NCBI RefSeq assembly: GCF_010500835.1
Contig: NZ_JAAAMJ010000016.1
Coordinates: forward strand, 1 to 64,000
Source of the DNA: Aurantimonas aggregata
Lineage (GTDB): Bacteria; Pseudomonadota; Alphaproteobacteria; Rhizobiales; Rhizobiaceae
Direction: 5' to 3'
Length of the DNA stretch: 64,000 bases
The translations under genes and the position numbers were made by a program. Below the pieces are notes generated by a model. That model made no database searches, was not told the origin of the DNA, and saw only the letters and a list, made by a program, of their open reading frames with translations. This document shows, one piece after another, positions 33,799 to 62,270 of this stretch; the stretch's first letter is position 1, and each line of letters begins with the position of its first letter.

Positions 33799-33854
33799 GT
33801 CTTCCCCCGTCTTCCGGCCCGGTCTCGCGGTGCCTCAGTCAATATTGGCGACGA

Positions 33855-34559: not shown

Positions 34560-34579
34560 GGCCATCCTCTTGACACCCT

Positions 34580-34602: not shown

Positions 34603-34628
34603 CACACAAGCTGAGGGTGAGGAGAACC

Positions 34629-36035
34629 ATGGCGCTTCTGGCGGACGACAGGCTGTTTCCCACTGAAGCGCGCTCGCGGGCTATGGCCCGGTCGCTCTAC
34701 GAGACCGTGAGGTCCCTGCCGATCGTCAGCCCGCATGGCCACACCGATCCGCGCTGGTTCGCCGAGAACCAGCATTTTCCCGACCCGGCGCACCTGATCG
34801 TTGTGCCCGACCACTACATTTTCCGGATGCTGGTCTCGCAGGGCGTGCCGTTGGCGGCGCTGGGCGTGCCCTCCGCCGACGGTTCGCCGGTCGAGACCGA
34901 CGGGCGGGTGATCTGGCGGCGCTTCGCCGAGAACTACCATCTGTTCCGTGGCACGCCAACGCGGCTCTGGCTCGACGACGCCTTCCAGAACCTCTTCGGT
35001 ATCGATGAGCGCCTCTCGGCCGAGAATGCCGACAGGGCCTATGACCGCATCGCAGAGTGCCTGGCGCAGGAAGACTTCCGCCCGCGGGCACTTTTCGAGC
35101 GCTTCGGCGTCGAGGTCATCGCCACCACCGAGGGGGCGCTCGACGATCTGGCTTTCCACCGCGCCATCAAGGAGAGCGGCTGGAGCGGCCGCGTCGTCAC
35201 GACCTATCGCCCGGACGCGGTCGTCGACCCGGACTTTCCCGGCTTTGCCGCCAACCTCGTCCGGCTCGGCGAGCTGACCGGCTGCGACACCGGCACGTTC
35301 GCCGGCTATCTTGACGCGCATCGGGCGCGGCGGCGTTTCTTCCGTGAGCATGGCGCGACGGCGACGGACCACGGTCATCCGACCGCGCGCACCGCCAGTC
35401 TTTCCGCTGCCGAGGCTGCTGCGCTCTACGACCGCGTGCGCGACGGCCACGCTTCGGCCGACGAGCGCGAGCAGTTCCGGGCCCTGATGCTGACCGAGAT
35501 GGCCAAGCTCTCGGTCGAGGACGGCATGGTGATGCAGATCCATGCCGGCTCGTTCCGCAACCATTCGGGTCCGGTCGCCGCCGCGTTCGGCCGCGACAAG
35601 GGCTTCGACATCCCCATGCCGACGAACTACGTCGACGCGCTCAAGCCGATGCTGGACGTGGTGGGAATGGAGCCGGGGCTCACCATCATCCTCTTCACCC
35701 TCGACGAGACCGTCTATGCCCGCGAGCTCGCGCCGCTGGCCGGCGTCTATCCGGCGCTGCGGCTCGGGCCACCCTGGTGGTTCTACGATTCCTTCCAGGG
35801 GATGAAGCGGTTCCGCGAACAGGTCACCGAGACAGCCGGCTTCTACAACACCGTCGGCTTCAACGACGATACCCGCGCCTTCTGCTCGATCCCCGCCCGG
35901 CACGACGTCGCGCGGCGGGTGGACTGCGGCTATCTCGCCGAGCTCGTGACGACAGGACGCCTCGACGAGGACGAGGCGTTCGAGGTCGCGCACGATCTCA
36001 CCTATCGCCTGGCCAAGGAGGCCTACAGGCTCTAA
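34629..36035 (+). CDS. uxaC: Glucuronate isomerase
   Basis: A 468-aa amidohydrolase-fold isomerase that converts D-glucuronate to fructuronate and D-galacturonate to tagaturonate. The metal motif [14 protein letters not shown] (HxH), [26 protein letters not shown], and the C-terminal [10 protein letters not shown] and [17 protein letters not shown] are typical UxaC. GAGGAGAACC directly precedes the ATG at 34629. It starts a + strand operon with the second TRAP system, a UxuB-like enzyme, kdgF, kduI and kduD. Confidence 0.95.
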
Positions 36036-36073
36036 CGGCGGCATCGCCGCTGCATTCTGGGAGGAAGCACAAC

Positions 36074-37063
36074 ATGGGCATGATCAGAACTATCGCCACA
36101 CGGCTCGCCGTCGCCACCGCGCTCGCCGGTCTCGCGTCTTCGGCCTTCGCGCAGGAAATCGTCCTGCGCTCGTCGGACACGCATCCGGACGGCTACCCGA
36201 CCGTGGAGGCGGTCGAGTTCATGGGCGAACTCATCAAGGAGCGCACGGACGGGCGCATCGCGGTCGAGGTCTATCATTCGGCGCAGCTCGGCGAGGAAAA
36301 GGACACGATCGAGCAGACGCAGTTCGGCGTCATCGATCTCAACCGCGTCTCGATGGGCACGATGAACAACGTCGTCGAGGCGACGCGGGCGTTCTCGCTG
36401 CCCTACATCTTCCGCTCGACCGACCATCTGCATGCGGTCACCGACGGGCCGATCGGCCAGGAAGTGCTGGAGTCCTTCGCGCCGCACAACATGATCGGAC
36501 TGGCGATCTACGACGCCGGCTTCCGCTCCTTCTACAACTCCAAGAAGCCGATCAACTCGATGGAAGACCTGGCGGGCATGAAGTTCCGCGTCATCCAATC
36601 CGACGTCTTCGTCGACATGGTCAATGCGCTCGGCGCCAACGCAACGCCGATGCCCTACGGCGAGGTCTATTCGGCCATCCAGACCGGCGTCATCGACGGC
36701 GCGGAGAACAACTGGCCGAGCCTGGAATCCTCCAAGCACTACGAGGTCGCCAAGTACTACACGCTCGACGAGCACATGAGCGTGCCGGAGATCCTCGTGA
36801 TGTCGAAGATGAGCTGGGAGAAGCTCACGCCGGAAGACCAGGAGATCATCCGGACCGCGGCGCAGGACAGCGTCGCCGAGATGCGCAAGCTCTGGCAGGC
36901 GCGCGAGGCGGAATCGGAGAAGGTTGTCACCGACGCCGGCGTCGAGATCGTCCGCGAGATCGACAAGCAGCCCTTCATGGACGCGATGAAGCCGGTCTAC
37001 GAGAAGCACGTCACCAGCGACGTCCTGAAGGACATGGTCGCCCGCATCCAGGCGACCGAGTAG
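36074..37063 (+). CDS. dctP: TRAP transporter substrate-binding protein DctP (system 2)
   Basis: A 329-aa periplasmic protein with a signal peptide ending at SSAFAQ (~residue 26). [37 protein letters not shown], the carboxylate-binding Arg in [14 protein letters not shown] and [22 protein letters not shown] (by position) mark a DctP of the DctP/SiaP group. GGGAGGAAGC precedes the ATG. It lies 38 bp after uxaC in the uronate operon, so a hexuronate or unsaturated uronate is the likely ligand. Confidence 0.93.
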
Positions 37064-37074
37064 GCCCCAGAACC

Positions 37075-37105
37075 GGGCACCCGCCGGCGCGAGCCGGGGG
37101 TGCCC
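37075..37105 (+). terminator. Intercistronic hairpin after dctP (system 2)
   Basis: GGGCACCC (37075-37082) pairs with GGGTGCCC (37098-37105), and an inner GCCGG/CCGGC-type stem extends it. It starts 12 nt after the dctP stop and is not followed by a T-tract. It probably stabilises or partly terminates the message so that the binding protein is made in excess. Confidence 0.75.
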
Positions 37106-37142
37106 GTCATCCATTCCCGCAACGAACGAAAGCCGCACGCAC

Positions 37143-37658
37143 ATGCGTGACGCACTGCTCGCGATCGACCCCTTCATTCGGCTCCTCGCGAAAGCCGCGC
37201 TCTACGCCGCCGGCGTCGGGCTCGTGGCGATGACGCTGGTCATCTTCTGGCAGGTCTTCGGCCGCTACGTGCTCAACAGCAGCCCGAGCTGGTCGGAATC
37301 CGTCGCCGTCATCCTGATGGCCTGGTTCATCTTCCTGGGCGCCTCGGTCGGCATTCGCGAGGGTTACCACCTCGGCTTCGACGTGCTGATGTACGTCATG
37401 CCGCCGACGGGAAAAATCGTCCTGCGCACGATCTCGGACCTCGCGGTACTCGGTTTCGCGCTCGCGATGATGATCTACGGGACCCAGCTGCTCCAGGGCA
37501 CGTGGGGCGCTGTGATCCCGACGCTCGGCCTGTCCGTCGGCCTCAGCTTCCTGCCGCTCATCGTCGGCGGCGGCCTGTCCATCCTGTTCACCGTCGAGCG
37601 CATCCTGCGCCGCTTCAGCGGCCTCGAGAACGCCAACGCCTTCGCGATTGCGGACTGA
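37143..37658 (+). CDS. dctQ: TRAP transporter small permease DctQ (system 2)
   Basis: A 171-aa membrane protein with four helices and the family block VFGRYVLNSSPSWSESVAV, followed by FLGASVGIREGYHLG with the conserved Glu/His region. The ribosome site before the ATG at 37143 is weak. It ends 7 bp before dctM. Confidence 0.91.
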   Translation: MRDALLAIDPFIRLLAKAALYAAGVGLVAMTLVIFWQVFGRYVLNSSPSWSESVAVILMAWFIFLGASVGIREGYHLGFDVLMYVMPPTGKIVLRTISDLAVLGFALAMMIYGTQLLQGTWGAVIPTLGLSVGLSFLPLIVGGGLSILFTVERILRRFSGLENANAFAIAD

Positions 37659-37665
37659 AGCCACC

Positions 37666-38946
37666 ATGGAACTCACCATCCTCTTCGGGACCTTCGTGTT
37701 CCTGTTGCTGATCGGCACGCCGATCGCCTTCTGTCTCGGCATCGCCTCGCTGGCGACGGTCATGTATATCGGCATCCCGCCGCTGATCGTCTTCCAGCGG
37801 CTGAATTCCGGCCTCAGCGTCTATGCGCTGCTCGCCATTCCGTTCTTCATCTATGCCGGCGACCTGATGGTCCGCGGCGGCATCGCCGGAAGGCTCGTCG
37901 CCTTCGCCGGCTCGCTCGTCGGCCACGCCCGCGGCGGCCTCGGGCAGGTGAACGTCGCGGCGTCGACGCTGTTCGGCGGCGTGTCGGGCTCGGCGGTCGC
38001 GGATGCCTCGGCCATCGGCGGCCTGATGGTGCCGCAGATGGAAAAGCGCGGCTACGGCGCCGACTACGCGGTGAACATCACCGTCGTCTCCTCGATCATC
38101 GCGCTGATGATGCCGCCGTCGCACAACATGATCATCTATTCGATCTCGGCCGGCGGCACGATCTCGATCGCCGACCTGTTCACAGCCGGCGTCGTGCCGG
38201 GGCTGCTGCTCGCCGCGAGCCTGATGGTCGTCAGCTGGTGGGTGGCGGTCCGTCGGGGATACCCGACCGAAAGCTTCCCCGGCTGGCGGATGGTGGCCAT
38301 CCTGTTCGTCGGCGCCATTCCCGGCCTGCTGTTGATCGGCATCATCTTCGGCGGGGTGCGCTCGGGCGTCTTCACGGCGACGGAAAGCTCGTGCATCGCG
38401 GTCGTGTACGCCGTGGTGGCGACGATCATCTGCTATCGCTCGCTCAGCTTCCATGATTTCACCCAGGCAACCCTCGGGGCGGTCCGCACGACGGCCATGG
38501 TCCTGCTGATCATCGGCATGGCGGCTGCCTTCGGCTGGCTGCTCGCCTATCTGCGGGTGCCGGCCGAACTCGTCGCCTTCATGAAGAGCGTGTCGGACAA
38601 CCCGTTCGTCATCCTCCTGATGGTCAACGTGATGCTGCTCGGCCTCGGCTCGTTCATGGACATGTCGCCGCTGATCATCATCACGACGCCGATCTTCCTG
38701 CCGGTTGTCACCGCCTATGGCGTCGACCCGGTGCAGTTCGGGGTGATCATGGTGCTCAATCTCGGCATCGGCCTCTGCACGCCGCCGGTCGGCGCGGTGC
38801 TCTTCGTCGGCTGCGCCATCGGCAAGATCTCGGTCTGGCAGGCGATGCGCTCGATCTGGCCGTTCTACGGCGCCGCGGTCTTCGTGCTGGCGCTGGTCAC
38901 CTACGTCCCGGCCGTGTCGCTCTGGCTGCCGTCGCTGTTCCGGTGA
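37666..38946 (+). CDS. dctM: TRAP transporter large permease DctM (system 2)
   Basis: A 426-aa, 12-helix permease. PIAFCLGIASLATVMYIG, LLAIPFFIYAGDLMVRGGI, FGGVSGSAVADASAIGGLM, MMPPSHNMIIYSISAGG and GLCTPPVGAVLFVGCAIG are DctM landmarks. The frame is open from a TTG at 37648, but the ATG at 37666 gives the family N terminus and avoids overlapping dctQ. It is followed after 4 bp by the UxuB-like gene. Confidence 0.92.
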   Translation: MELTILFGTFVFLLLIGTPIAFCLGIASLATVMYIGIPPLIVFQRLNSGLSVYALLAIPFFIYAGDLMVRGGIAGRLVAFAGSLVGHARGGLGQVNVAASTLFGGVSGSAVADASAIGGLMVPQMEKRGYGADYAVNITVVSSIIALMMPPSHNMIIYSISAGGTISIADLFTAGVVPGLLLAASLMVVSWWVAVRRGYPTESFPGWRMVAILFVGAIPGLLLIGIIFGGVRSGVFTATESSCIAVVYAVVATIICYRSLSFHDFTQATLGAVRTTAMVLLIIGMAAAFGWLLAYLRVPAELVAFMKSVSDNPFVILLMVNVMLLGLGSFMDMSPLIIITTPIFLPVVTAYGVDPVQFGVIMVLNLGIGLCTPPVGAVLFVGCAIGKISVWQAMRSIWPFYGAAVFVLALVTYVPAVSLWLPSLFR

Positions 38947-38950
38947 TCGC

Positions 38951-40438
38951 ATGAATAGACTGTCGCTCCGGACGCTGCCGGACCTGGATCGCCAGGTCCG
39001 GAGGCCCACCTACGATCCGCGCACGACGGCGGCCGGCATCGTGCATCTCGGCGTCGGGGCGTTCCACCGCGCCCATCAGGCGGTGTATCTCGACGACATC
39101 CTCGCCGACGACCCGCAATGGGCGATCGTCGGCGCCTCGCTGCGCCGAGCCGACATGCGCGACGCGCTAGCCGCGCAGGACAATCTCTTCACGGTCGCCA
39201 TCCGCTCCGGCGACGAGACCAGGCTGCGCGTCGTCGGCTCGCTGAAGGCGATCCACGTCGCGCCGGAGAACCCTGAAGCGCTGCTGGCCGCGATGTGCGA
39301 CCCTGCGGTGCGCATCGTCTCGATGACCGTCACGGAAAAGGGCTATTGCCACGACCCGGCGACCGGCGATCTCGACCCGACGCATCCCGATGTTGCCGCC
39401 GATCTCGCCCGGCCGCGTGCCCCGATTTCGACGCCCGGCCTGCTGGCGGAGGCGCTGCGGCGGCGACGCGAGGCGAAGATCGTCCCGTTCACGGTGATGC
39501 CTTGCGACAATCTGCCGGAAAACGGGCCGACCGTGCACCGGATCGTCGCGCAATACGCCGCGCTGATCGATAGCGGCCTCGCGCGCTTCGTCGAGAACGA
39601 CGTCGCCTTCGCCGGAACGATGGTCGACCGGATCGTGCCGGCGACGAGCGAGGCGGATATCGCCGAGATTGCGGCGACACTCGGCGTCGCGGATGCCTGG
39701 CCGGTGATGACCGAGCCGTTCACCCAATGGGTGATCGAGGATCGCTTTCCGACCGGACGCCCGGACTTCGCTTCCGTCGGCGTCGAGATGGTCAGCGATG
39801 TCGAGCCGTTCGAGCGGATGAAGCTGCGGATGCTCAACGGCTCGCACTCGACGCTGGCCTATCTCGGCTATCTCGCCGGCTACGAGACGGTGTCAGAAAC
39901 CATGGCCGATCCGGCCTTCGAGCGGCTGGTCCGAGACCTCATGAGCGAGGAGGTCATCCCAACGCTCGACGTGCCCGGCGCCGACCTCGGGGCCTATCGC
40001 AACGCGCTCGTCCAGCGCTTCAACAACCCTGCGCTGAAGCATCGGACCTGGCAGATCGCCATGGACGGATCGCAGAAACTGCCGCAGCGGTTGCTCGGCA
40101 CGGTTCGCGACCGGCTCGCCGCCGGGGCGCCGATCGGCCGGCTGGCGCTCGGCGTCGCCGCCTGGATGCGCTATGTCACCGGCATCGACGAGAAGGGCGC
40201 GGCGATCGACGTCAGGGACCCGCTGGCCGACCGGCTGAAGGCGATCGGCGAGGCGGCCGGCCGCGATCCCGAGAAGCTCGCTGCGGCCTATCTCGGCGTC
40301 GAGGAGATCTTCGGTCGCGACCTGGCGGGCTCGGATGCTTTCGTTCGCCCCGTCGTCGCCGCACTCGCGGCGCTTCTCGATCGCGGCGCCGCGGCAACCG
40401 TTTCGGAATACGGCCGCGGCGGAGCCGCAACGGCCTGA
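38951..40438 (+). CDS. uxuB: Mannitol dehydrogenase family protein, probable fructuronate reductase
   Basis: A 495-aa NAD-dependent long-chain dehydrogenase. The N-terminal GIVHLGVGAFHRAHQAVYLDD (by position ~29-49), the SMTVTEKGYCH stretch, NLPENGPTVHRIV and the catalytic KLRMLNGSHS block are family features. Members reduce fructuronate to mannonate (UxuB), tagaturonate to altronate (UxaB) or oxidise mannitol. The surrounding uxuA, uxaC and kdg genes support UxuB. Because no other reductase is present, it might also serve galacturonate. It overlaps nothing; 4 bp after dctM and 10 bp before kdgF. Confidence 0.88.
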   Translation: MNRLSLRTLPDLDRQVRRPTYDPRTTAAGIVHLGVGAFHRAHQAVYLDDILADDPQWAIVGASLRRADMRDALAAQDNLFTVAIRSGDETRLRVVGSLKAIHVAPENPEALLAAMCDPAVRIVSMTVTEKGYCHDPATGDLDPTHPDVAADLARPRAPISTPGLLAEALRRRREAKIVPFTVMPCDNLPENGPTVHRIVAQYAALIDSGLARFVENDVAFAGTMVDRIVPATSEADIAEIAATLGVADAWPVMTEPFTQWVIEDRFPTGRPDFASVGVEMVSDVEPFERMKLRMLNGSHSTLAYLGYLAGYETVSETMADPAFERLVRDLMSEEVIPTLDVPGADLGAYRNALVQRFNNPALKHRTWQIAMDGSQKLPQRLLGTVRDRLAAGAPIGRLALGVAAWMRYVTGIDEKGAAIDVRDPLADRLKAIGEAAGRDPEKLAAAYLGVEEIFGRDLAGSDAFVRPVVAALAALLDRGAAATVSEYGRGGAATA

Positions 40439-40448
40439 AGGAGAGAAC

Positions 40449-40781
40449 ATGAGCAATGCTACCGCACAGACCGCCGGCGCGTGGACGCAGGTGGACGAGA
40501 AGGTCCGGCGGCGGATCCTGTCGCACACGCCGGAGATGATGGTCGTCGAGGTCGAGTTCCAGCCCGGCGGCTACGGTCCGCCGCACGCCCACCCGCATCT
40601 GCAGTCGACCTACGTGAAATCCGGCAGCTTCGACTTCACGATCTCAGGCGAGATGCGGACGATCGGCGAGGGCGACAGCATCGTCGTGCCGTCGAACGCC
40701 GTGCATTCCTGCCAGAGCGCCAGTGGTGGTGGACTGATCGACGTCTTCGCCCCGGCGCGGGAAGACTTCCTCACGCCCTGA
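40449..40781 (+). CDS. kdgF: KdgF-like cupin, unsaturated uronate linearising protein
   Basis: A 110-aa single-domain cupin. PHAHPHLQSTYVKSGSFDF gives metal-binding His residues and Glu/Gln positions, and the second cupin motif has SIVVPSNAVHSC. KdgF opens 4,5-unsaturated uronate monomers from pectin or alginate lysis to DKI/DEH. GGAGAG precedes the ATG. Its place right before kduI-kduD matches that role. Confidence 0.88.
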   Translation: MSNATAQTAGAWTQVDEKVRRRILSHTPEMMVVEVEFQPGGYGPPHAHPHLQSTYVKSGSFDFTISGEMRTIGEGDSIVVPSNAVHSCQSASGGGLIDVFAPAREDFLTP

Positions 40782-40802
40782 CATCCGGCCTGCCACCGAT
40801 TT

Positions 40803-40828
40803 ACCCACGGCACCGCGGCGCCGTGGGT
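40803..40828 (+). terminator. Intercistronic hairpin between kdgF and kduI
   Basis: ACCCACGGC (40803-40811) and GCCGTGGGT (40820-40828) form a 9-bp stem around a GC-rich loop. No T-tract follows, so it may tune downstream expression or protect mRNA. Confidence 0.65.
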
Positions 40829-40860
40829 GCACCTACCAGACACCTGAAGGACGAGACCCC

Positions 40861-41685
40861 ATGAAGATCGAAACACGCCAGGCGATCGACCCGCGCCACG
40901 CCAAGACCCTCGACACCGAAGGGCTGCGCGCTGAGTTCCTGATGGCGGGGCTGTTCCAGCCAGGCGAGATCAGCCTCGTCTACAGCCATTACGACCGGCT
41001 GATCGTCGGGGGTGCCGTGCCGGCCGGCGGCGAACTCGTGCTGGACAGCGCCAAGGAGACCGGCACGCCGGGCTTCCTCGACCGGCGCGAGGCGGTGGTG
41101 GTCAATGTCGGCACGGCGGGCAACGTGCGAACGGGGAGCGGCGCCTACGATCTCGGACATCGCGACATGCTCTATGTCGGGCTCGGCGACGCGCCGCTGA
41201 CCTTTTCCGGCGAGGGCGCCCGCTTCTACATCCTCTCGGCGCCGGCGCATCGCCGCTTCGACACGCGGCTGGTGACGATCGACGCCGCCAAGCGGGTCGA
41301 TCTCGGCGCCGCCGAGACGTCCAACGACCGCTCGATCTTCCAGTTCGTGCATCCCGACGTGATGGAGAGCTGCCAGATCGTCGTCGGCATGACGACGCTG
41401 CACAACGGCTCGGTCTGGAACACGATGCCGGCGCATCTCCATGACCGCCGCTCGGAAGCCTATCTCTATTTCGACCTGCCGGAAGAGGCGCGGGTGTTCC
41501 ACATGATGGGCGATCCGGCCGAGACGCGGCATCTGGTGGTCAAGAACGAGGACGCGGTGCTGTCGCCGCCCTGGTCGATCCATTGCGGCGCCGGCACCGC
41601 CTCCTACACCTTCATCTGGGCGATGGCCGGCGACAATGTCGACTATCGCGACGTCGACATGGTCGCCATGAGCGACCTCAAATGA
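40861..41685 (+). CDS. kduI: 4-deoxy-L-threo-5-hexosulose-uronate ketol-isomerase
   Basis: A 274-aa cupin-fold isomerase that converts DKI to 2,5-diketo-3-deoxygluconate. The zinc ligands lie in NTMPAHLHDRRSEAYLYFDL (His, His, Glu) and PPWSIHCGAG (His). The N-terminal RQAIDPRHAKTLDTEGLR and FLDRREAVVVNVG are KduI blocks. A strong hairpin lies 33 bp upstream. Its stop overlaps the kduD start (ATGA). Confidence 0.94.
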   Translation: MKIETRQAIDPRHAKTLDTEGLRAEFLMAGLFQPGEISLVYSHYDRLIVGGAVPAGGELVLDSAKETGTPGFLDRREAVVVNVGTAGNVRTGSGAYDLGHRDMLYVGLGDAPLTFSGEGARFYILSAPAHRRFDTRLVTIDAAKRVDLGAAETSNDRSIFQFVHPDVMESCQIVVGMTTLHNGSVWNTMPAHLHDRRSEAYLYFDLPEEARVFHMMGDPAETRHLVVKNEDAVLSPPWSIHCGAGTASYTFIWAMAGDNVDYRDVDMVAMSDLK

Positions 41686-42440
41686 GCGGACGCTTCGACC
41701 TTTCCGGCAAGCGCGCCTTCGTCACCGGCGCCAATACCGGCATCGGGCAGGGCATCGCCGTCGCGTTGGCCGCGGCCGGCGCGACGGTGGCCTGCGCCGG
41801 TCGTTCGCCGATGGCCGAGACGCAGGCGGCGATCGCTGCCGCCGGCGGTGCGGCGAGCGAATGGCTGGGCGATCTCGCCGACAAGGACGTCGCGGTCGGC
41901 CGGTTCGAGGCGGCAGCCGCCGAGCACGGGGCCTTCGACATCCTGATCAACAATGCCGGCATCATCCGCCGGGCCGACGCGGTGGACTTCACCGAGGCGG
42001 ACTGGGACGACGTGCTCGATCTCAACCTGAAGACGGCTTTCTTCCTGTCGCAGGCCTTCGGCAAGGCAGCGATCGCGGACGGGCGGCGCGGCTCGATCGT
42101 CAACATCGCCTCGGTGCTGACCTTCCAGGGCGGCATCCGCGTTGCCAGCTACACCGCCTCCAAGCACGGCATCGCCGGTGTCACCAAGCTGCTCGCCTGC
42201 GAGTGGGCCGGCAAGGACATCAACGTCAACGCCATCGCGCCGGGCTACATCGTCACCAACAATACAGCTGCCTTGCGCGACGATCCCGACCGGACCGCCG
42301 CGATCCTGTCGCGCATTCCGGCCGGTCGCTGGGGCGAGGCCTCCGACATCGGCGGCGCGGCGGTGTTCCTGGCGTCGGATGCGGCGCGCTACATCCACGG
42401 CGCCGTGCTGCCGGTGGATGGCGGCTGGCTCGCCCGCTGA
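41682..42440 (+). CDS. kduD: 2-dehydro-3-deoxy-D-gluconate 5-dehydrogenase
   Basis: A 252-aa classical SDR that reduces 2,5-diketo-3-deoxygluconate to KDG, the step after KduI. Cofactor motif TGANTGIG, NNAG in ILINNAGIIRR, catalytic Ser in IVNIASVLTF, and YTASK (Tyr and Lys). FDLSGKRAFVTGANTGIGQG and the C-terminal YIHGAVLPVDGGWLAR are typical of KduD. The start overlaps the kduI stop by 4 bp. Last gene of the + strand uronate operon, 7 bp from the convergent SMP-30 gene. Confidence 0.93.
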   Translation: MSGRFDLSGKRAFVTGANTGIGQGIAVALAAAGATVACAGRSPMAETQAAIAAAGGAASEWLGDLADKDVAVGRFEAAAAEHGAFDILINNAGIIRRADAVDFTEADWDDVLDLNLKTAFFLSQAFGKAAIADGRRGSIVNIASVLTFQGGIRVASYTASKHGIAGVTKLLACEWAGKDINVNAIAPGYIVTNNTAALRDDPDRTAAILSRIPAGRWGEASDIGGAAVFLASDAARYIHGAVLPVDGGWLAR

Positions 42441-42447: not shown

Positions 42448-43326
42448 CTACAGCAGCACCTTCGGCTCGTGCCGGCCCTTGACCGGCAGGTCGAGCACGA
42501 AGGTCTTGCCGGCATCGGGGTCTTCCCGACGTTCGGCATCGGACAGCCCGCTCCAGGCGGAGGTGACGATCAGCCGGTCGGCGCTCTGGCCGACGAAGGC
42601 CGGACAGGTGACCCGGCTTGCGCCGATGGCGATGGAGCCGATGCGGGTGCCGCCCGGCGCGTAGGTGTCGAGCATGCCCGAGCCCCAGCGGGCGTTCCAG
42701 ACCTGCCCCTCGGCGTCGCAGACCGAGCCGTCGATGCCGCCCTCGCGGCTCGTGTGATCGAAGAACAGCTGCGGTTCGCCGATCGGCAGGCCGTTATCCG
42801 GGTCGATGTCGACGCGCATCAGCCGGTAGTTCTTGGTGTCGGTGAAATAGGCGATGCACCCGTCCGGCGAGAAGCAGATGGAATTCGGAATGCCGATGCC
42901 GGGATAGAGCTGGCGCATTTCGCCGGCCCGGTACCAGTAGATGGCGCCGAGCCCTGCCTCGCCGTCGATGCCCATCGTGCCGACCCACAGCGCGCCGGAG
43001 GGATGCACGCGGCCGTCATTCGAGCGCGTGGCGGCGTTTTCCGCCTCCATCGGCCTGTGCAGCGACAGCCGGCCGCTGCGCCGGTCGCGGACGTAGAGCC
43101 CGTCCTGCGCCGCCATCAGCTGGCGGTCGCCGTCGATGACCGCCAAGACGCTCGCCATGAAGGGCAGGGGATGGACAGTCGCCTCGTCGGCATCCGTCGG
43201 CTTCTCGAGCAGCGCCTTGCCCTCGATGTCGAACCACCAGGCGGTGCCGGTCGCCGGGTCGTAGGTTGCGCCCTCGCCGAGCCGGCAGGCGATGCTGGAA
43301 AACACGCCGACCTTCACATCCGTCAT
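42448..43326 (-). CDS. SMP-30/gluconolactonase family protein
   Basis: A 292-aa six-bladed beta-propeller lactonase. Metal ligands are suggested by LGEGATYD (Glu), ATRSNDGRVHPSGALWVG (Asn/Asp), GIPNSICFSPDG (Asn) and GGIDGSVCDAEGQVW (Asp). These enzymes hydrolyse sugar acid lactones such as glucono-, galactono- or arabinonolactone. GGGAGGAATCGAA precedes the ATG. It lies between the uronate operon and the DUF1045/PHP pair and could belong to either; the - strand order PHP, DUF1045, SMP-30 would allow one transcript. Confidence 0.88.
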   Translation of the reverse strand: MTDVKVGVFSSIACRLGEGATYDPATGTAWWFDIEGKALLEKPTDADEATVHPLPFMASVLAVIDGDRQLMAAQDGLYVRDRRSGRLSLHRPMEAENAATRSNDGRVHPSGALWVGTMGIDGEAGLGAIYWYRAGEMRQLYPGIGIPNSICFSPDGCIAYFTDTKNYRLMRVDIDPDNGLPIGEPQLFFDHTSREGGIDGSVCDAEGQVWNARWGSGMLDTYAPGGTRIGSIAIGASRVTCPAFVGQSADRLIVTSAWSGLSDAERREDPDAGKTFVLDLPVKGRHEPKVLL

Positions 43327-43384: not shown

Positions 43385-44092
43385 TCAAGCGACAAGCGCG
43401 CCCGCGACCTCCGTCCGGTCGCGACGGGGATCGAACGGATGCATCGAATGCAGCCGGAACGGCGCGCCGGGCTCCGGCTCGACGAAGATCGCCAGCCGGT
43501 CGATCGCGATCGGGGCGCCGTCGAGCGCGCCGAAGTGCTTGGCGAGCCGCTTCCCGACCTTGGCCTGGTCCTTCGCATCGACGGACCCGGTCAGAGTCAT
43601 GTGGAAGCGGAAATCGTTGAACACGTAGGGATAGCCCCATTCGGCCAGCTGTTCGCGCTGGCGCTCGCTCAGCTTGTCCGGATTACGGCGCCGGATGTCC
43701 TCTTCGCTCATCGGCGCCCGCATCGGCTCGAACGTCCGCACGACTGCGGCGGCGAGTTCCACGAGCGCCACCGGCGGTGTTTCGGGGACGAAGGCGAAGA
43801 ACGATCCCAGCCGGTCGATGACCAGCGCATCGATCGCGACGGCGTCGCGGGAGGCGCAGAAGGCGGCCAGGCGGGCATCGAGATCGGCGAGATCGGTATC
43901 GTCGGCGAGGTGGAACGGCGCCTTCATCGTGGCGTGGAAGCCGTAGCGCGCCGGCTGCTCGACGAGGGGATCGAGGCGCTTGTCGCGCGGCCGCGTCGGC
44001 TCCCCGTCGAAGGCGCCGCGGCCAAGCCATTCCGCCGCCGCCCGTGTCAGGGGGGCTCCGGCGGGCGGCGTAAAGTAGATGGCGGCGCGCAT
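43385..44092 (-). CDS. DUF1045 (TIGR03223) protein, 2H-phosphoesterase-like, phosphonate-associated family
   Basis: A 235-aa protein with two HxT motifs: FHATMKAPFHL (~residue 54) and FHMTLTGSV (~residue 165). These are the paired catalytic histidines of the 2H phosphoesterase (LigT-like) superfamily. The family is called putative phosphonate metabolism protein because it often lies in phn operons. Here no phnG-M lyase genes are present; it follows a PHP metallohydrolase. I start at the ATG at 44092 (MRAAIYFTPP); a GTG at 44104 is possible and no strong ribosome site is visible. A role on a cyclic phosphate or phosphodiester is inference. Confidence 0.82.
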   Translation of the reverse strand: MRAAIYFTPPAGAPLTRAAAEWLGRGAFDGEPTRPRDKRLDPLVEQPARYGFHATMKAPFHLADDTDLADLDARLAAFCASRDAVAIDALVIDRLGSFFAFVPETPPVALVELAAAVVRTFEPMRAPMSEEDIRRRNPDKLSERQREQLAEWGYPYVFNDFRFHMTLTGSVDAKDQAKVGKRLAKHFGALDGAPIAIDRLAIFVEPEPGAPFRLHSMHPFDPRRDRTEVAGALVA

Positions 44093-44227
44093 GGGCGGGG
44101 TCACAGTCAGCTTGGTGGGGCGGCGGCCGCAGGAGGCGCCACGGGGAACCGCATATTGTCTTGCGGCGGGGCGGACATAGGCCCCTCGACGCGATTTGCC
44201 CAGCGCTGGCCGGTCCGCGTGGCGGGC

Positions 44228-45127
44228 TCAGAGCCAGATCGGGTTCGACCAGGCGCGGTGGCCGGCGGCATCGGTCACCACCACCCGGCACCAGTCGCCG
44301 GCAAACCGCGACAGCGGCAGGGTGGCTCTGGTCAGCTGGCGGCCGGTCGCGCATTCGGCCCGCGAACCGCGCCCGACGAGCGAGACCGTGACGGCCGGCG
44401 AGGAGGTGATCTCGATCTGGTCGGCTTCGACGACGATATCGAGGATCGCCGGCCCTTGCGTCGAGTAGTAGGCGCCGGCCTTCATCGCCGCGAGCAGCGC
44501 CTCGGGCTCGTTTGCCTCGGCCTTCACCATCATCCAGCCGCCGTTGTAGTCGGCCAGCTTGAAATGCGCGTCGTCGGCGGCGTAGCCGGTCAGGCGATGG
44601 CCTTCGTTGAGCAGCGCGTCGAGCAGCATCGTGCCGTCGCCGCGGGCGCATTCGACGTCGCAGCCGGTGTTCCAGATCTCGACTGCATGGGCGATGCCGG
44701 CCATCTGGCGTCCGTCCTCGATGGTCAGAGACGACCATTGCGGATGGGCGATTCCGAGGAAGGCGCCGGCGGCCACGGCCCGCGCCGCCAGCGCGACGGC
44801 ATCCTCGTCCGGCTCGAGCGGCGCGAAGTCGAGCGGCAGGCCGCAGGCCAGGAGGTGCCAGATCTCGCCGTGGCTGTTCTCGGGCGCGTGGATCTCGGCG
44901 CCGAAGATGGTCGTCAGCCGGTTGCTGCGGAAGGCCGTCGTGTCGGTGACGGGAAAGCCGAAGCGCTCGAGGAAATGGTCCGACAGGCAGAGAAAGTCGT
45001 AGCCGGCCTCCTCGTAATGGCGGCAGACCGATTGCGGCGAAAGCGCGCCGTCGGAGCGATCCGAATGTGTGTGGATGTTGCCGCGATGGAAGCGGCCGGC
45101 AGCCGTGAAGGCGGACAATCCGGTCAT
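44228..45127 (-). CDS. PHP-domain (CehA/McbA-like) metallohydrolase
   Basis: A 299-aa protein with a full set of PHP-type metal ligands: NIHTHSDRSDG (HxH, Asp), CLSDHFL (Asp-His), a Glu in FGAEIHAP, His in LGIAHPQWS, and GYAADDAHF (Asp-His). The C-terminal ~80 residues look like an extra beta domain. Relatives include phosphoesterases and the carbaryl hydrolases CehA/McbA. AGGAAAAAAG precedes the ATG. No signal peptide is seen, so it should act in the cytoplasm on what the divergent ABC importer brings in. Substrate unknown. Confidence 0.83.
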   Translation of the reverse strand: MTGLSAFTAAGRFHRGNIHTHSDRSDGALSPQSVCRHYEEAGYDFLCLSDHFLERFGFPVTDTTAFRSNRLTTIFGAEIHAPENSHGEIWHLLACGLPLDFAPLEPDEDAVALAARAVAAGAFLGIAHPQWSSLTIEDGRQMAGIAHAVEIWNTGCDVECARGDGTMLLDALLNEGHRLTGYAADDAHFKLADYNGGWMMVKAEANEPEALLAAMKAGAYYSTQGPAILDIVVEADQIEITSSPAVTVSLVGRGSRAECATGRQLTRATLPLSRFAGDWCRVVVTDAAGHRAWSNPIWL

Positions 45128-45235
45128 CTTTTTTCCTGCTCTTGCCGGATAACGGGTTACCGGTGCTTAATATCGGATTGATGACGGATCGTCGCCGAAG
45201 CATCTCGCCGATCACCAGTGGATTGCGGCGAGAGA

Positions 45236-45253
45236 GCGACATCCAAGTGTCAT
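45236..45253 (+). promoter_or_regulatory. PHO-box-like element in the PHP/ABC divergent promoter
   Basis: GCGACAT (45236-45242) and GTGTCAT (45247-45253) are separated by CCAA, the 7-4-7 layout of a PHO box, with 4/7 and 6/7 matches to CTGTCAT. It ends 90 nt before the binding-protein ATG, almost the same distance as the ugp PHO box (89 nt). Match quality is moderate, so chance cannot be excluded. Confidence 0.5.
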
Positions 45254-45255
45254 GT

Positions 45256-45275
45256 GCCGGTGCTAACGCACCGGC
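45256..45275. promoter_or_regulatory. Hairpin/palindrome next to the PHO-box-like element
   Basis: GCCGGTGC (45256-45263) and GCACCGGC (45268-45275) flank TAAC. This perfect 8-bp inverted repeat may be an operator or part of the 5' leader. A related GGTTACCGGTGC lies ~100 bp upstream. Confidence 0.4.
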
Positions 45276-45343
45276 GCTCCGAGTGAGACGACTGGGGTTG
45301 ACCGCCTTCGCCGATCCGGCGGAAGGCCAGAGAGGGTTTCCGC

Positions 45344-46468
45344 ATGAACAGCTCCTGCAAACGCGTCGCGGCATTGACCGCGATCCTGTCGCTTTCCACC
45401 AGCGCGGCCTTTGCCCAGACGGCCGACGGCGCGGCGATGTCGATGGACGAACTTGTCGCCGCGGCCAAGGAAGAAGGCCAGCTGACGACGATCGCCCTGC
45501 CGCACGACTGGTGCAATTACGGCGAGATGATCGCGGGCTTCAAGGAGAAGTACGGGATCGCCATCAACGAGCTCAACCCGAATGCAGGCTCCGGCGACGA
45601 GATCGAGGCGATCAAGGCCAACCAGGGCAATACCGGCCCGCAGGCACCGGACGTCATCGACGTCGGCCTCTCCTTCGGCCCGGCGGCGCAGGCCGAGGGC
45701 CTGCTGATGCCCTACAAGGTCTCCACCTGGGACGAGATCCCGGACGACGCCAAGGATGCCGACGGCCACTGGTACGGCGATTATTACGGCGTTCTTTCCT
45801 TCCAGGTGAACAAGGACATCGTCGACGAGGTTCCGCAGGATTGGGACGACCTCCTGAAGCCGGAATTCGCCAATTCGGTCGCGCTTTCGGGCGACCCGCG
45901 CTCGTCGAACCAGGCAATTCAGGCTGTCTACGCCGCCGGCCTGGCTGCCCAGCCGGACGGTGACGGCGCTGCCGTCGGACAGGCCGGTCTCGACTTCTTC
46001 AAGCGGCTCAACGAAGCCGGCAATTTCGTGCCGGTGGTCGGTTCGACCGCGACCTTGGCACAGGGCACGACGCCGGTGCTCATCCACTGGGACTACAACG
46101 CGCTTTCCTCGCGCGACACGCTGGGCGATAACCCGCCGACCGAAGTCGTCGTGCCGGCTTCCGGCGTCGTCGCCGGCGTCTACGTTCAGGGCATCAGCGC
46201 CTACGCGCCGCATCCGAACGCCGCCAAGCTCTGGATGGAGTATCTCTACTCGGACGAGGGCCAGCTGACCTGGCTGAAGGGTTACTGCCACCCGATCCGC
46301 TTCAATGCCATGTCGGCCGCCGGCAAGATCCCGCAGGACCTGCTCGACGCGCTGCCGCCTGCGGCCTCCTACGAAGCCGCGAAGTTCCCGACCCTCGAGG
46401 AACAGGACGCGGCCAAGACGGCAATCACCACGCAGTGGGACAGCGTCGTCGGCGCCACCGTTCAGTAA
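45344..46468 (+). CDS. ABC transporter substrate-binding protein, Fe3+/polyamine/aminoethylphosphonate type
   Basis: A 374-aa periplasmic family-1 binding protein with signal peptide (cleavage after STSAAFAQ, ~residue 25). PDVIDVGLSFGPAAQAEG, WYGDYYGVLSFQVNKD, VPQDWDDLLKPEFANSVAL and ALSGDPRSSNQAIQAVYAAG are typical of this cluster, which includes PotD-like, AfuA-like and PhnS-like proteins. GGAAGGCCAGAGAGG lies upstream of the ATG. It is followed by a hairpin, two permeases and an ATPase. The divergent PHP and DUF1045 genes and the PHO-box-like site suggest an organophosphorus ligand (inference). Confidence 0.88.
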   Translation: MNSSCKRVAALTAILSLSTSAAFAQTADGAAMSMDELVAAAKEEGQLTTIALPHDWCNYGEMIAGFKEKYGIAINELNPNAGSGDEIEAIKANQGNTGPQAPDVIDVGLSFGPAAQAEGLLMPYKVSTWDEIPDDAKDADGHWYGDYYGVLSFQVNKDIVDEVPQDWDDLLKPEFANSVALSGDPRSSNQAIQAVYAAGLAAQPDGDGAAVGQAGLDFFKRLNEAGNFVPVVGSTATLAQGTTPVLIHWDYNALSSRDTLGDNPPTEVVVPASGVVAGVYVQGISAYAPHPNAAKLWMEYLYSDEGQLTWLKGYCHPIRFNAMSAAGKIPQDLLDALPPAASYEAAKFPTLEEQDAAKTAITTQWDSVVGATVQ

Positions 46469-46478
46469 TCTGAACATG

Positions 46479-46503
46479 GGGGCCGCCGTCTCGCGGCGGT
46501 CCC
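46479..46503 (+). terminator. Intercistronic hairpin after the binding-protein gene
   Basis: GGGGCCGCCG (46479-46488) and CGGCGGTCCC (46494-46503) form a 10-bp stem with one G-T pair and a 5-nt loop, followed by TTC. It lies 11 nt after the stop and before the permease start, like the hairpins after ugpB and both dctP genes. Confidence 0.75.
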
Positions 46504-46531
46504 TTCATGCAGGCGTTTCGAGCGGGGAAGC

Positions 46532-47449
46532 ATGGCGTCAGTCGTCGACGGAGTTCTGCCCGATGCAAGGTCGGCGTCTGTCGCGGGTCCGCCCGTGAAG
46601 GGGGCTCCGTTCTCGCTCGCTTGGCTCGGGATCGTCCCGTTCTTCCTGTTCGCGCTACTCTTCCTGGTCGGCCCGACGGTGTATCTCGTCTTCGGCGCCT
46701 TCCAGGATCCGAGCGGCGCGCTGACGCTCGCGAACATAGAGGGCCTGTTCACGCCGCAGATCATGGCGGCCTACTGGATCTCGATAAAGATCAGCGTCGC
46801 CTCGGCCGCGCTCGGCGCGCTGATCGGCTTCTTCATCGCCTATGCGATCGTCCATGGTGGGCTGCCTGCCTGGATCCGCCCCAGCATCCTCACCTTCTCC
46901 GGCGTTGCCTCGAACTTCGCCGGCATTCCGCTCGCCTTCGCGTTTCTCGCGACGCTCGGGCGGCTGGGTCTCGTCACGGTGTTCCTGAACGAGAGCTTCG
47001 GCATCAATATCTACCGGCTCGGCTTCAACCTCCTGTCGTTCTGGGGCCTGACGATCACCTATCTCTATTTCCAGATCCCGCTGATGGTGCTGATCATCGC
47101 GCCGGCGCTGGACGGCCTGAAGAAGGAATGGCGCGAGGCGTCCTCCATTCTCGGTGCCACCAGCTGGCAATACTGGCGCATGGTCGGGCTGCCGGTGCTG
47201 GCGCCGTCGATCCTCGGCTGCTTCCTGCTGCTCTTCGCCAACGCCTTCGGGGCGATCGCCACCGCCTATGCGCTGACCGGCTCGTCGCTCAACATCGTGC
47301 CGATCCTGCTCTACGCCCAGATCCGCGGCGACGTGCTCTACAACCCCAATCTCGGCTATGCGCTGGCCTTCGGGATGATCGTCATCACCGGCTGCTCGAA
47401 CCTTCTCTATCTGTGGCTGCGGGCTCGTGCCGAACGGTGGCAGCGATGA
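46532..47449 (+). CDS. ABC transporter permease (first subunit)
   Basis: A 305-aa permease with about six helices after a ~28-residue hydrophilic N terminus. The EAA loop EWREASSILGATSWQYWRMVGLPVL lies at residues ~195-220. GRLGLVTVFLNESFGINIYR and the preceding GVASNFAGIPLAFAF are seen in PotB/PhnU-like permeases. GCGGGGAAG precedes the ATG. It overlaps the next permease by 4 bp (ATGA). Confidence 0.9.
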   Translation: MASVVDGVLPDARSASVAGPPVKGAPFSLAWLGIVPFFLFALLFLVGPTVYLVFGAFQDPSGALTLANIEGLFTPQIMAAYWISIKISVASAALGALIGFFIAYAIVHGGLPAWIRPSILTFSGVASNFAGIPLAFAFLATLGRLGLVTVFLNESFGINIYRLGFNLLSFWGLTITYLYFQIPLMVLIIAPALDGLKKEWREASSILGATSWQYWRMVGLPVLAPSILGCFLLLFANAFGAIATAYALTGSSLNIVPILLYAQIRGDVLYNPNLGYALAFGMIVITGCSNLLYLWLRARAERWQR

Positions 47450-48270
47450 AAGCGTCGACCGTCGGCCCCTATCTCGTCGTCCTCCTCGGCGGGCTGTATT
47501 TCCTGCTGCCGCTGGTGGCGACCTTCGAGTTCTCGTTGTCGATGCTGCGCGGCATCTGGAGCTTCGAGGCCTACCGCGTCGTCTTCGCCGACCCGCGTTT
47601 CCGCGAGACCTTCACCTTCTCGATCGTCGCGGCATCGGCGACGATCGTGCTCGGCGCGCTGCTGGTGGTGCCGACCGCCTACTGGGTGCGGCTGAGATTC
47701 CCGAAGCTGCGGCCTGTGGTGGAATTCATCACGCTGCTGCCGCTGGTGATCCCGCCGATCGTGCTCGTCTTCGGCTATCTGCGGCTCTACAATTCCTCGT
47801 CCTTCCTGCCGTTCACGGCGACCGCGAACGGCACCAACCTGCTGCTCGTCTTCGGCTATGTCGTCCTGTCGCTGCCTTACATGTTCCGCGCGGTCGACAC
47901 TGGCATGGCGGCGATCGACATCCGCACGCTGACCGAGGCGGCCGAGAGCCTCGGGGCCAGGCGCAGCACCATCTTGTTCAAGGTCATCCTGCCGAATGTC
48001 CGAGCCGCCGTGCTCTCGGGCGCCTTCCTCACCTTCGCGATCGTCATCGGCGAGTTCGTGCTGGCGAGCCTCCTCAACCGTCCGGCATTCGGCCCCTATC
48101 TCGCGCTGGTTGGCGCCGACCGGGCCTACGAGCCTGCGGCGCTGGCGGTGATCGCCTTCGCCATCACCTGGGCCTGCATGGCGCTGATCCAGCTCTCCGG
48201 CCGCAAGGCGACCGGCGGGCGCCGCTTGCCCCGTTCTCTGTTCACCCTGTCCAGGCGTGCCGCAAGATGA
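47446..48270 (+). CDS. ABC transporter permease (second subunit)
   Basis: A 274-aa permease with six helices and an EAA loop TEAAESLGARRSTILFKVILP (by position ~163-183). LLPLVIPPIVLVFGYLRLYN is typical of PotC/PhnV-like partners. It is translationally coupled on both sides by 4-bp ATGA overlaps, with the first permease and with the ATPase. Confidence 0.9.
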   Translation: MKASTVGPYLVVLLGGLYFLLPLVATFEFSLSMLRGIWSFEAYRVVFADPRFRETFTFSIVAASATIVLGALLVVPTAYWVRLRFPKLRPVVEFITLLPLVIPPIVLVFGYLRLYNSSSFLPFTATANGTNLLLVFGYVVLSLPYMFRAVDTGMAAIDIRTLTEAAESLGARRSTILFKVILPNVRAAVLSGAFLTFAIVIGEFVLASLLNRPAFGPYLALVGADRAYEPAALAVIAFAITWACMALIQLSGRKATGGRRLPRSLFTLSRRAAR

Positions 48271-49352
48271 GCTTTCTCGACATTGCCGGCGTTACCAAAA
48301 GCTTCGGCCCGAACACCGTGGTGCATGGCTTCGACCTCGCCATCCAGAAGGGCGAGTTCGTCTCGTTTCTTGGCCCCTCCGGCTGCGGCAAGACGACGAT
48401 GCTGCGCATGGTCGCGGGCTTTGAGCTTCCCACCGCCGGCACGATCCGGATCGACGGCGAGGACGTCACCCACCAGCAGCCGAACCGCCGGCGGATCGGC
48501 ATGGTGTTCCAGGCCTATGCACTGTTTCCCAATCTCTCGGTCGCCGACAATGTCGCCTTCGGGCTGAAGGTCGCGGGCCGGCCGAAACGGGAGATCGCCT
48601 TGCGGGTCGAGGAGATGCTGCAGCTGATCAAGCTGCCGCATCTGGCCGACCGTTATCCCTACCAGCTCTCCGGCGGCCAGCAGCAGCGCGTGGCGCTCGC
48701 CAGGGCACTGGCGCCGAGCCCGCGGGTTCTCCTCCTCGACGAGCCGCTCTCGGCCCTCGACGCCAAGATCCGCCTGTCGCTGCGCGAGGAAATCCGGGCC
48801 CTGCAGCGCGAGCTCGGGATCACCACGATCTTCGTCACCCACGACCAGGAAGAGGCGCTGTCGATGTCCGACCGCATCGTGGTGATGAGCGAGGGCCGCA
48901 TCGAGCAGTGCGGCGCGCCGTTCGAGATCTACAACCGGCCGAACAACCGTTTTGTCGCCGGTTTCGTCGGCACGCTCAGCCTGATCGAAGGGGTGAGGGC
49001 GGCCGGCGGCAGCGTGACGGTCGATGGCAGCCCGGTGACGCTCGCCGAGCCGAGCCCGGGCGCCGCCGGCTCGCCGGTGACGCTGGCGCTGCGGCCGGAG
49101 GCGGTGAAGCTCGAGCCGTCGCCGGAACGGGTCAACTGCTTACGCGGCCGCGTCGAGGACGCGCATTTTTTGGGGTCAGTGGTGCGGCTGCGGCTGTCCG
49201 TCGCCGGCGGCACGATCCTCGCCGACACGTTCAACCGCCCGACATCGCCGCCGCCCGTCCGCGGCACGGTCGTCGACCTGTTCTTTTCGCCACACGACGT
49301 GTTCGCGCTTCAGCCGGGCGCGACGCCGGCGACGATGGCGGCGGTGGCCTGA
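48267..49352 (+). CDS. ABC transporter ATP-binding protein (PotA/PhnT-like)
   Basis: A 361-aa ATPase. Walker A GPSGCGKTT (~residue 34), signature LSGGQQQRVALARAL, Walker B VLLLDEP, D-loop SALDAK and switch VTHDQEEA are all intact. A C-terminal TOBE domain (~residues 240-361) has LALRPEAVKLEP. The start overlaps the upstream permease by 4 bp. The importer is complete: binding protein, two permeases, ATPase. Confidence 0.92.
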   Translation: MSFLDIAGVTKSFGPNTVVHGFDLAIQKGEFVSFLGPSGCGKTTMLRMVAGFELPTAGTIRIDGEDVTHQQPNRRRIGMVFQAYALFPNLSVADNVAFGLKVAGRPKREIALRVEEMLQLIKLPHLADRYPYQLSGGQQQRVALARALAPSPRVLLLDEPLSALDAKIRLSLREEIRALQRELGITTIFVTHDQEEALSMSDRIVVMSEGRIEQCGAPFEIYNRPNNRFVAGFVGTLSLIEGVRAAGGSVTVDGSPVTLAEPSPGAAGSPVTLALRPEAVKLEPSPERVNCLRGRVEDAHFLGSVVRLRLSVAGGTILADTFNRPTSPPPVRGTVVDLFFSPHDVFALQPGATPATMAAVA

Positions 49353-49362: not shown

Positions 49363-49388
49363 GGGCGGCCGGACAGGCCGCGCCTTTA
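49363..49388 (+). terminator. Possible terminator of the ABC operon
   Basis: GCGGCC (49365-49370) and GGCCGC (49376-49381) pair around a 5-nt loop, followed by GCCTTTACTT. It lies between the ABC operon and the convergent purU gene. Confidence 0.5.
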
Positions 49389-50240
49389 CTTAAACACTAC
49401 CGTGCGGTGGCCGTTGATCATCACCCGCTGCTCCAGATGCATCTTCACCGCGCGGGCAAGCACGCGGCTCTCGACGTCGCGGCCGACGGCGACGAAATCG
49501 TCGGGCGACATCGCATGAGTGACGCGCTCGGTCTCCTGCTCGATGATCGGGCCCTCGTCGAGGTCGGCGGTGACGTAATGCGCCGTCGCGCCGATCAGCT
49601 TGACGCCGCGCTCATGCGCCTGGTGGTAGGGCTTGGCGCCCTTGAAGCTCGGCAGGAACGAGTGGTGGATGTTGATGATCTTGCCGGACAGGCGCCTTGA
49701 GAGATTGTCCGACAGGACCTGCATGTAGCGGGCGAGCACCACGAGATCGGCATCGCTCTCGCGCACCAGCGTCAGGAGCTTCTCTTCCTGCTCGGCCTTG
49801 GTCTCGCGGGTCACCGGCCAGTGATGGAATGGCACCCCCTCGTACTCGGCGGTGCGGCGGGAATCCTCGTGGTTCGAGACGATGGCGACGATCTCGGCGC
49901 GCAGCCAGCCGACGCGTATCTGGTAGAGCAGATGCAGCAGCGCGTGGTCGAATTTCGAGACCAGGAGCACGATCCGCGGCATGCGCGACAGGTCGGCGAT
50001 CGTCGTCTTCAGGTCGAAGCGCGAAACGACCGGCGCGAGCTGCCGCTCCAGCGCGTCGCGCTGCGTTCCCTGCGGCGCCGTGAAGGCGATCCGCAGGAAG
50101 AAGCGGTCGCTCTGGCGGTCCCAGAACTGCGCGCTCTCGGCGATGTTCGCACCGGCGTCGGCAAGTTCGGTCGTCACCGCGGCGACGATGCCGGGCTGGT
50201 CCCTGGAGGACAGCGTCAGGATGAAGGCTTGGTCGGTCAT
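49386..50240 (-). CDS. purU: Formyltetrahydrofolate deformylase
   Basis: A 284-aa enzyme that releases formate from 10-formyl-THF. An N-terminal ACT domain (residues ~1-80: LTLSSRDQPGIVAAVTTELA by position) senses glycine or methionine in E. coli PurU. The C-terminal formyltransferase fold has IVSNHED, NIHHSFLPSFKGAKPYHQA (catalytic His) and TADLDEGPIIEQ (Asp). I take the ATG at 50240 because it gives the family N terminus. A longer frame upstream is not conserved in style. It stands alone. Confidence 0.94.
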   Translation of the reverse strand: MTDQAFILTLSSRDQPGIVAAVTTELADAGANIAESAQFWDRQSDRFFLRIAFTAPQGTQRDALERQLAPVVSRFDLKTTIADLSRMPRIVLLVSKFDHALLHLLYQIRVGWLRAEIVAIVSNHEDSRRTAEYEGVPFHHWPVTRETKAEQEEKLLTLVRESDADLVVLARYMQVLSDNLSRRLSGKIINIHHSFLPSFKGAKPYHQAHERGVKLIGATAHYVTADLDEGPIIEQETERVTHAMSPDDFVAVGRDVESRVLARAVKMHLEQRVMINGHRTVVFK

Positions 50241-62255: not shown

Positions 62256-62270
62256 TGCTAACAATTCTAA

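Follow-up and report, generated by a model that had tools for sequence, protein, structure and literature searches.

Several described systems resemble parts of the locus reported here. The ugpBAEC-ugpQ genes couple glycerophosphodiester import to a phosphodiesterase, PhnSTUV-type ATP-binding cassette (ABC) transporters import 2-aminoethylphosphonate, and the DUF1045-phnM-phnN operon is an accessory of carbon-phosphorus (C-P) lyase in alphaproteobacteria. PHP metallohydrolases of the CehA/McbA family and the ethanolamine (Eto) operon of Phaeobacter and others are further points of comparison. We analyzed a 64,000-nucleotide window of Aurantimonas aggregata, a bacterium of soil or marine type (RefSeq assembly GCF_010500835.1, contig NZ_JAAAMJ010000016.1, positions 1 to 64,000; genome G000), in which a four-gene ABC importer (45344-49352, plus strand) is divergent from a minus-strand run that encodes a PHP metallohydrolase, a DUF1045 protein and an SMP-30 relative. 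We propose, with a probability of roughly 55% for the explanation as a whole, that this locus is an organophosphorus scavenging unit that is controlled by phosphate starvation (Pho) and derived from a C-P lyase accessory operon. An organophosphorus role under Pho control is probable, and the exact chemistry that we outline below is inferred.

Gene content and comparison with described systems

The importer genes encode a solute-binding protein (45344-46468; Pfam SBP_bac_6, 104.9 bits), two permeases (46532-47449, with an uncertain start and an alternative at 46595, and 47446-48270; both Pfam BPD_transp_1) and an ATPase with a TOBE domain (48267-49352; Pfam ABC_tran and TOBE_2). The complete importer described in the initial annotation is thus borne out, as is its divergence from genuine PHP and DUF1045 genes. 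The range of 45128-49352 given for the system contains the importer, whereas the PHP and DUF1045 genes lie just to its left. All importer subunits weakly to moderately resemble the PhnS, PhnU, PhnV and PhnT2 models but fall short of their cut-offs. The solute-binding protein is far below those of two PhnS models (67 versus 310 and 61 versus 395.3 bits), and the ATPase scores 423.6 versus 457.7 bits with PhnT2. Like ugpBAEC-ugpQ, the locus pairs an importer with a phosphoester hydrolase and a PHO-like promoter, and ugpB and glycerophosphodiester phosphodiesterase (GDPD) genes adjoin some PHP orthologs. However, the solute-binding protein is not UgpB, which is encoded separately at 8491-9795.

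The PHP protein (44228-45127, minus strand) exceeds the cut-off of the NCBIfam CehA/McbA model (NF038032, 102.6 versus 80 bits) and barely clears Pfam PHP (26.7 versus 26.4 bits). In an alignment of 32 PHP proteins, residues H19, H21, D26, H51, E78, H80, H91, H128, D185, D186 and H188 are invariant. Judging by the PHP fold, these are the presumed metal ligands, in line with the full ligand set noted earlier. An AlphaFold2 model built from a 16-sequence alignment (predicted local distance difference test score 84.1, predicted template modelling score 0.87) shows a PHP domain followed by a beta region at the C-terminus. A structure search with this model returned 11 matches at E<=0.001, all of them PHP proteins (3e38, 2anu, 7ug9, 9etk and 3e0f), and the predicted fold does not settle the substrate. 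A phmmer search with the PHP sequence found no solved chain at E<=0.01, and no model named PhnPP was among the NCBIfam matches at E<=0.001. The closest named relative is from Aurantimonas endophytica (94%), with identical gene order.

The DUF1045 gene (43385-44104, minus strand) belongs to a family of 2H-phosphoesterase-like, phosphonate-operon proteins. Its product exceeds the cut-offs of TIGR03223 (262.6 versus 248.95 bits), PF06299 (198.9 versus 24.3 bits) and Pfam 2_5_RNA_ligase2 (27.7 versus 27 bits). Both HxT/S motifs of 2H phosphoesterases are present in the translation (GFHAT and FHMT), in agreement with the earlier family assignment.

Relation to C-P lyase

The initial annotation described a free-standing system without C-P lyase. 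BLAST with reference proteins, which did not include phnW or phnZ, finds no C-P lyase genes in the window, but a phnF/phnGHIJKL/phnCDE/phnMN cluster is present on contig C9 of the same genome. This contig encodes the single PhnJ of the genome (PF06007), PhnM and PhnN (model matches), and PhnF, G, H, K, L, C, D, E and a hexapeptide protein, each above at least one model cut-off; phnI is a putative assignment based on position. A genome search gave one match for DUF1045, the gene in the window. Beside the C-P lyase cluster on contig C9 (L138:931-5505), we also observed a second Phosphonate-bd type binding protein, an ATPase and a permease next to an amidohydrolase, with a PHO-like pair (score 11) at position 2923, upstream of the binding protein.

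We searched eight genomes of the genus and identified the PHP gene in three (G000, G297 and G299), the importer in six and DUF1045 in six. The three parts occur together in three of the eight genomes, and no other fetched PHP locus contains the trio with the same importer. The trio is therefore not widely conserved and was rejected as a functional unit beyond three species. In G303, purU and the importer are followed by a divergent DUF1045-phnM-phnN-SMP30 run, with model scores over cut-off and no PHP gene. The importer likewise adjoins DUF1045-phnM-phnN in G095, while G301 has DUF1045-phnM-phnN at the equivalent site without the importer and G298 has the importer on one contig and DUF1045-phnM-phnN on another. 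The window shares its chromosomal neighbors (purU, importer and SMP-30) with G303 and G301. purU (49386-50240, minus strand; TIGR00655, 331.9 versus 285.95 bits) follows the importer in the window and is a flanking landmark that in sister species also lies beside the importer or DUF1045-phnM-phnN. The SMP-30/gluconolactonase-like gene (42448-43326, minus strand; Pfam SGL, 202.9 bits), the final gene of the minus-strand run, has a relative that comes after DUF1045-phnM-phnN in two sister species.

Because DUF1045-phnM-phnN runs divergently from the importer in G303, where PHP is missing, and because the A. aggregata genome has its only DUF1045 in the window and the other phn genes on contig C9, the window looks like a displaced and extended C-P lyase accessory operon rather than an independent system. 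It differs from DUF1045-phnM-phnN in having the PHP gene in place of the missing phnM-phnN. Among five other genus genomes, PhnJ is present in G303 and was not found in G298, G300, G301 or G302. DUF1045-phnM-phnN is kept in G298 and G301 (L228 and L229), which could reflect relics, assembly gaps or an independent use.

DUF1045 is proposed to be a phosphoribosyl cyclic phosphodiesterase in PMC8235418, and PMC10574752 makes the same proposal for a 2H protein of operons that lack phnP. PhnP exceeds its cut-off in none of 13 genomes searched, with a positive E. coli control. For DUF1045, a step downstream of C-P lyase is more plausible than one immediately following PHP. We also considered PHP as a substitute for DUF1045, an idea weakened by the presence of both in G323, G330, G166, G189 and G138.

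Conserved promoters, protein families and flanking genes

A PHO box had been placed 90 nucleotides before the start of the solute-binding protein gene. This 7-4-7 element, GTGTCATgtgcCGGTGCT (45247-45264, plus strand), lies 80-97 nucleotides before the start and scores 10.2 of 14 on a two-unit score based on the PHO-box consensus. The best score of the region, 10.3, is reached by 40 of 500 shuffles, so the element alone is not beyond chance. Orthologous promoters place the box one repeat unit further 5', at GCGACATccaaGTGTCAT (45236-45253, plus strand; score 10.3), and we rejected the original frame. GCGACATccaaGTGTCAT aligns with the boxes of orthologous promoters and is followed after ~7 nucleotides by a −10-like TGCTAAC. 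Upstream of the PHP gene is a weak pair, CCGTCATcaatCCGATAT (45170-45187, minus strand; score 10.3), which is not significant alone and is identical in L072 and L222.

Although the window box alone is not beyond chance, PHO-like boxes are enriched upstream of both importer and PHP orthologs. Upstream regions of importer orthologs reach a score of at least 11 in 22 of 45 cases and at least 10 in 37 of 45, compared with 4 and 48 of 342 control promoters. The aligned promoters read roughly NYGWCAY-N4-CTGTCAY, then ~7 nucleotides and a −10-like GCTAGC. For PHP orthologs, scanned on both strands, 19 of 61 upstream regions score at least 11 versus 12 of 342 controls (p 6.5e-10), and in Jiella pelagia (L085) a perfect box, CTGTCATcgcgCTGTCAT, lies between PHP and a PotD-type importer. 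Nine positive-control regions upstream of phnG score 9.3 to 11.8, which implies that the score sets known Pho-type promoters apart only without a sharp boundary. PMC10132767 reports PhoB dependence in Phaeobacter for a DUF1045 protein, a PHP protein (MED193_18169) and a PotD/PotA pair, which are possible orthologs of the window proteins.

We identified matches to the solute-binding protein in 90 of 297 genomes that evenly sample the order (E<=1e-20). By hand count, identity is 58% or more for 64 of these matches, from 63 genomes, and 46% or less for all others. The four importer genes are contiguous in the 39 importer loci that we fetched, except L156 (solute-binding protein alone) and L152 (broken by the gene caller). 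Among solved structures, chain 5t1p is the closest (E 6.5e-56); it may be a Campylobacter phosphate-starvation-regulon protein, an assignment that papers did not bear out and to which we give no weight. Six further solved relatives match much more weakly (up to E 1e-5), among them the pyridoxal-phosphate binder 6wce and Fe3+-annotated chains.

Iron alcohol dehydrogenase, aldehyde dehydrogenase, glutamine-synthetase-like and N-formylglutamate-amidohydrolase genes adjoin the importer in 5 of the 39 loci, which represent all five loci obtained from other genera of the window's family. By BLAST, at least two such genes occur in 0 of 40 random loci, 0 of 56 PHP loci and 0 of 4 genus importer loci. 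The set resembles the Eto operon described in PMC10132767, although none of the Eto genes is in the window (BLAST, five references). Together with the weak PhnS resemblance, these neighbors suggest that the importer ligand may be an ethanolamine-phosphorus compound. A cluster in G302 that was not counted by the BLAST test (L230:11886-14999, ~11 kb from the importer) encodes an RpiR-like regulator, an N-formylglutamate-amidohydrolase-like protein and TRAP (tripartite ATP-independent periplasmic) transporter proteins, and is Eto-type by eye.

We identified the PHP gene in 44 of the 297 genomes (46 matches) and assembled 61 PHP loci, comprising 40 of the 46 order matches fetched wide, 16 named loci and 5 plasmid loci, the last used from 21 plasmid records with a match. 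Organophosphorus reference genes lie within 9.5 kb of PHP in 22 of the 61 loci versus 1 of 40 random stretches from the same genomes, with 12 of 16 named loci and 4 of 5 plasmid loci contributing; these counts are not independent, since 11 of the 16 named loci are from Aurantimonas, Aureimonas, Jiella or Fulvimarina and L081 duplicates the order locus L033. An ABC ATPase is within 5 kb of PHP in 18 of 40 order-sample loci versus 7 of 40 random loci (p 0.0075). In a tree of 61 rows (60 different; L060 excluded for an in-frame stop), with neighbor labels assigned by hand from the neighborhood tests, the window protein belongs to a starred 25-row clade and, within it, a starred 15-row subclade. 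Organophosphorus neighbors occur in 16 of the 25 rows and in few rows outside the clade. Within the subclade, 8 rows adjoin C-P lyase genes and 4 adjoin DUF1045.

PHP orthologs adjoin at least five types of importer. C-P lyase genes are beside PHP in L036, L039, L040, L073, L074, L078, L079 and L082-L085, and phnM with DUF1045 in L080. UgpB exceeds its cut-off in L036 and L051, the latter also with GDPD, while L046, L048 and L064 contain an SBP_bac_1-type ABC transporter and a HAD hydrolase. L160 combines an ABC transporter with phnL, phnM and phnN, and L161 contains phnF and aepX. L158 and L159 contain phnX or phnA, the iron alcohol dehydrogenase PsrA (Phn_Fe-ADH model in L158, 437 versus 423.7 bits) and an Opp-type ABC transporter, and L086 has phnA and an Opp-type ABC transporter. 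This recurring set of L158, L159 and L086 is perhaps for esters of 2-hydroxyethylphosphonate or phosphonoacetate.

Elsewhere in the window, a hexuronate catabolism cluster lies to the left of PHP-DUF1045 (31703-42440). It includes a glucuronate isomerase (34629-36035, 566 versus 387 bits), a fructuronate-reductase-like gene and, by eye, TRAP transporter, uxuA, kduI and kduD genes; the SMP-30-like gene may be a member of this cluster. A plus-strand stretch (6753-12710) encodes a choline-sulfatase (TIGR03417, 881 versus 433 bits) followed by the separate UgpB (504 versus 411 bits) with apparent permeases and an ATPase, a possible second organophosphorus importer. At 59903-63999, a TonB-dependent heme receptor gene (TIGR01785, 384.8 versus 316.85 bits) is divergent from genes that by eye encode heme-binding and permease proteins.

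Proposed function, rival explanations and significance

We propose that phosphate starvation would induce the locus, with PhoB as the presumed binder, and that the importer would take up a phosphorus-containing organic compound: a phosphonate, a phosphonate ester or a phosphodiester, possibly with an ethanolamine moiety. The cytoplasmic PHP metalloenzyme would hydrolyze a P-O ester of this compound, and the freed phosphonate would pass to the C-P lyase encoded on the other contig. DUF1045, replacing PhnP, would then open the 5-phosphoribosyl 1,2-cyclic phosphate from the C-P lyase pathway. The locus would have derived from DUF1045-phnM-phnN, which faces the same importer divergently in a sister species. 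The organophosphorus role and Pho control claimed in the initial annotation are consistent with the orthologous promoters, the neighbors of some PHP orthologs and this sister-species arrangement.

Several observations weigh against this proposal. The window box is weak, and the left half of about half of the better importer boxes is TGACA, so a palindromic operator (TGACA-N8-TGTCA) is possible instead of a PHO box. In the order sample alone, organophosphorus neighbors of PHP are found in 6 of 40 loci versus 1 of 40 (p 0.054), and the stronger counts stem mostly from one family. A separate 15-row PHP clade has 14 rows without an organophosphorus neighbor or assigned importer, amino-acid-type ABC genes adjoin PHP in some loci (including L067, by eye), and a Streptomyces plasmid locus (L162) has no organophosphorus neighbor. 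PhnJ is not enriched in PHP-bearing genomes (25 of 44 versus 162 of 297, p 0.44), and we rejected the idea that PHP and C-P lyase co-occur across genomes. The importer's neighborhoods are not significantly rich in organophosphorus genes (4 of 39 loci versus 1 of 40, p 0.17), five importer loci have Eto-type neighbors, and the CehA/McbA name points to carbamate hydrolases.

Some of these observations fit other explanations. PHP-fold enzymes of the PhnPP kind can hydrolyze 5-phosphoribosyl 1,2-cyclic phosphate. PHP could itself assist C-P lyase as a cyclic phosphate (di)hydrolase that acts on this intermediate, with DUF1045 redundant or acting on another. The C-P lyase and DUF1045 neighbors of the window's subclade and the lack of PhnP matches agree with such a role; PMC8774927 names phnPP as giving ribofuranose 5-phosphate. 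We consider it unlikely, since 19 of the 44 PHP-bearing genomes (some incomplete) have no PhnJ, PHP also sits with phnX, phnA or ugp loci, and DUF1045 accompanies PHP in five genomes. The importer could also serve catabolism of ethanolamine or another nitrogen compound and adjoin PHP-DUF1045 by chance, leaving these two to act alone in organophosphorus metabolism. The likeness of its neighbors in five relatives to the Eto operon and the scarcity of organophosphorus genes at importer loci favor this account, which we regard as rather improbable: importer promoters have PHO-like boxes even in the five Eto loci (best scores 10.3 to 12.8), the importer adjoins DUF1045-phnM-phnN in G303 and G095, and the Eto set is absent from four genus loci. 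A locus with no phosphorus role, in which an importer of Fe3+, polyamine or another ligand lies beside a carbamate or amide hydrolase of CehA/McbA type, would account for the Fe3+-annotated relatives of the solute-binding protein and for the NCBIfam name of PHP. It seems very unlikely given the PHO-like promoters of importer and PHP orthologs, the G303 arrangement and the phosphonate neighbors of PHP orthologs. While the window PHP shares the model and fold of the CehA/McbA family, its genomic company is organophosphorus genes and importers, not known carbamate degradation.

Beyond the scavenging unit that we favor, a tentative and in our view doubtful generalization is that the PHP clade consists of undescribed intracellular phosphonate-ester and phosphodiester hydrolases that work with interchangeable importers (PotD-like, Ugp, Opp-type and PhnS-like) and feed C-P lyase, PhnX or PhnA. 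The family is termed undescribed because our searches of open-licence papers yielded no PHP enzyme of phosphonate catabolism. Relatives of the window's PHP protein suggest that it is a member of a little-studied family with a part in bacterial growth on organic phosphorus.

Phosphonates of marine polysaccharides are esterified, and the enzymes that free them were postulated, as alkaline-phosphatase-type, in PMC5649143. PHP proteins that keep company with importers and with C-P lyase, PhnX and PhnA, three different means of C-P cleavage, form a concrete, testable candidate family for freeing phosphonates. If this generalization holds, the family would supply the step that releases phosphonates from esters after uptake. 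Proteins that now carry the name of carbamate hydrolases would also gain a functional label, and an importer present in about one-fifth of the order's sampled genomes (63 of 297 at >=58% identity) would gain a substrate class.

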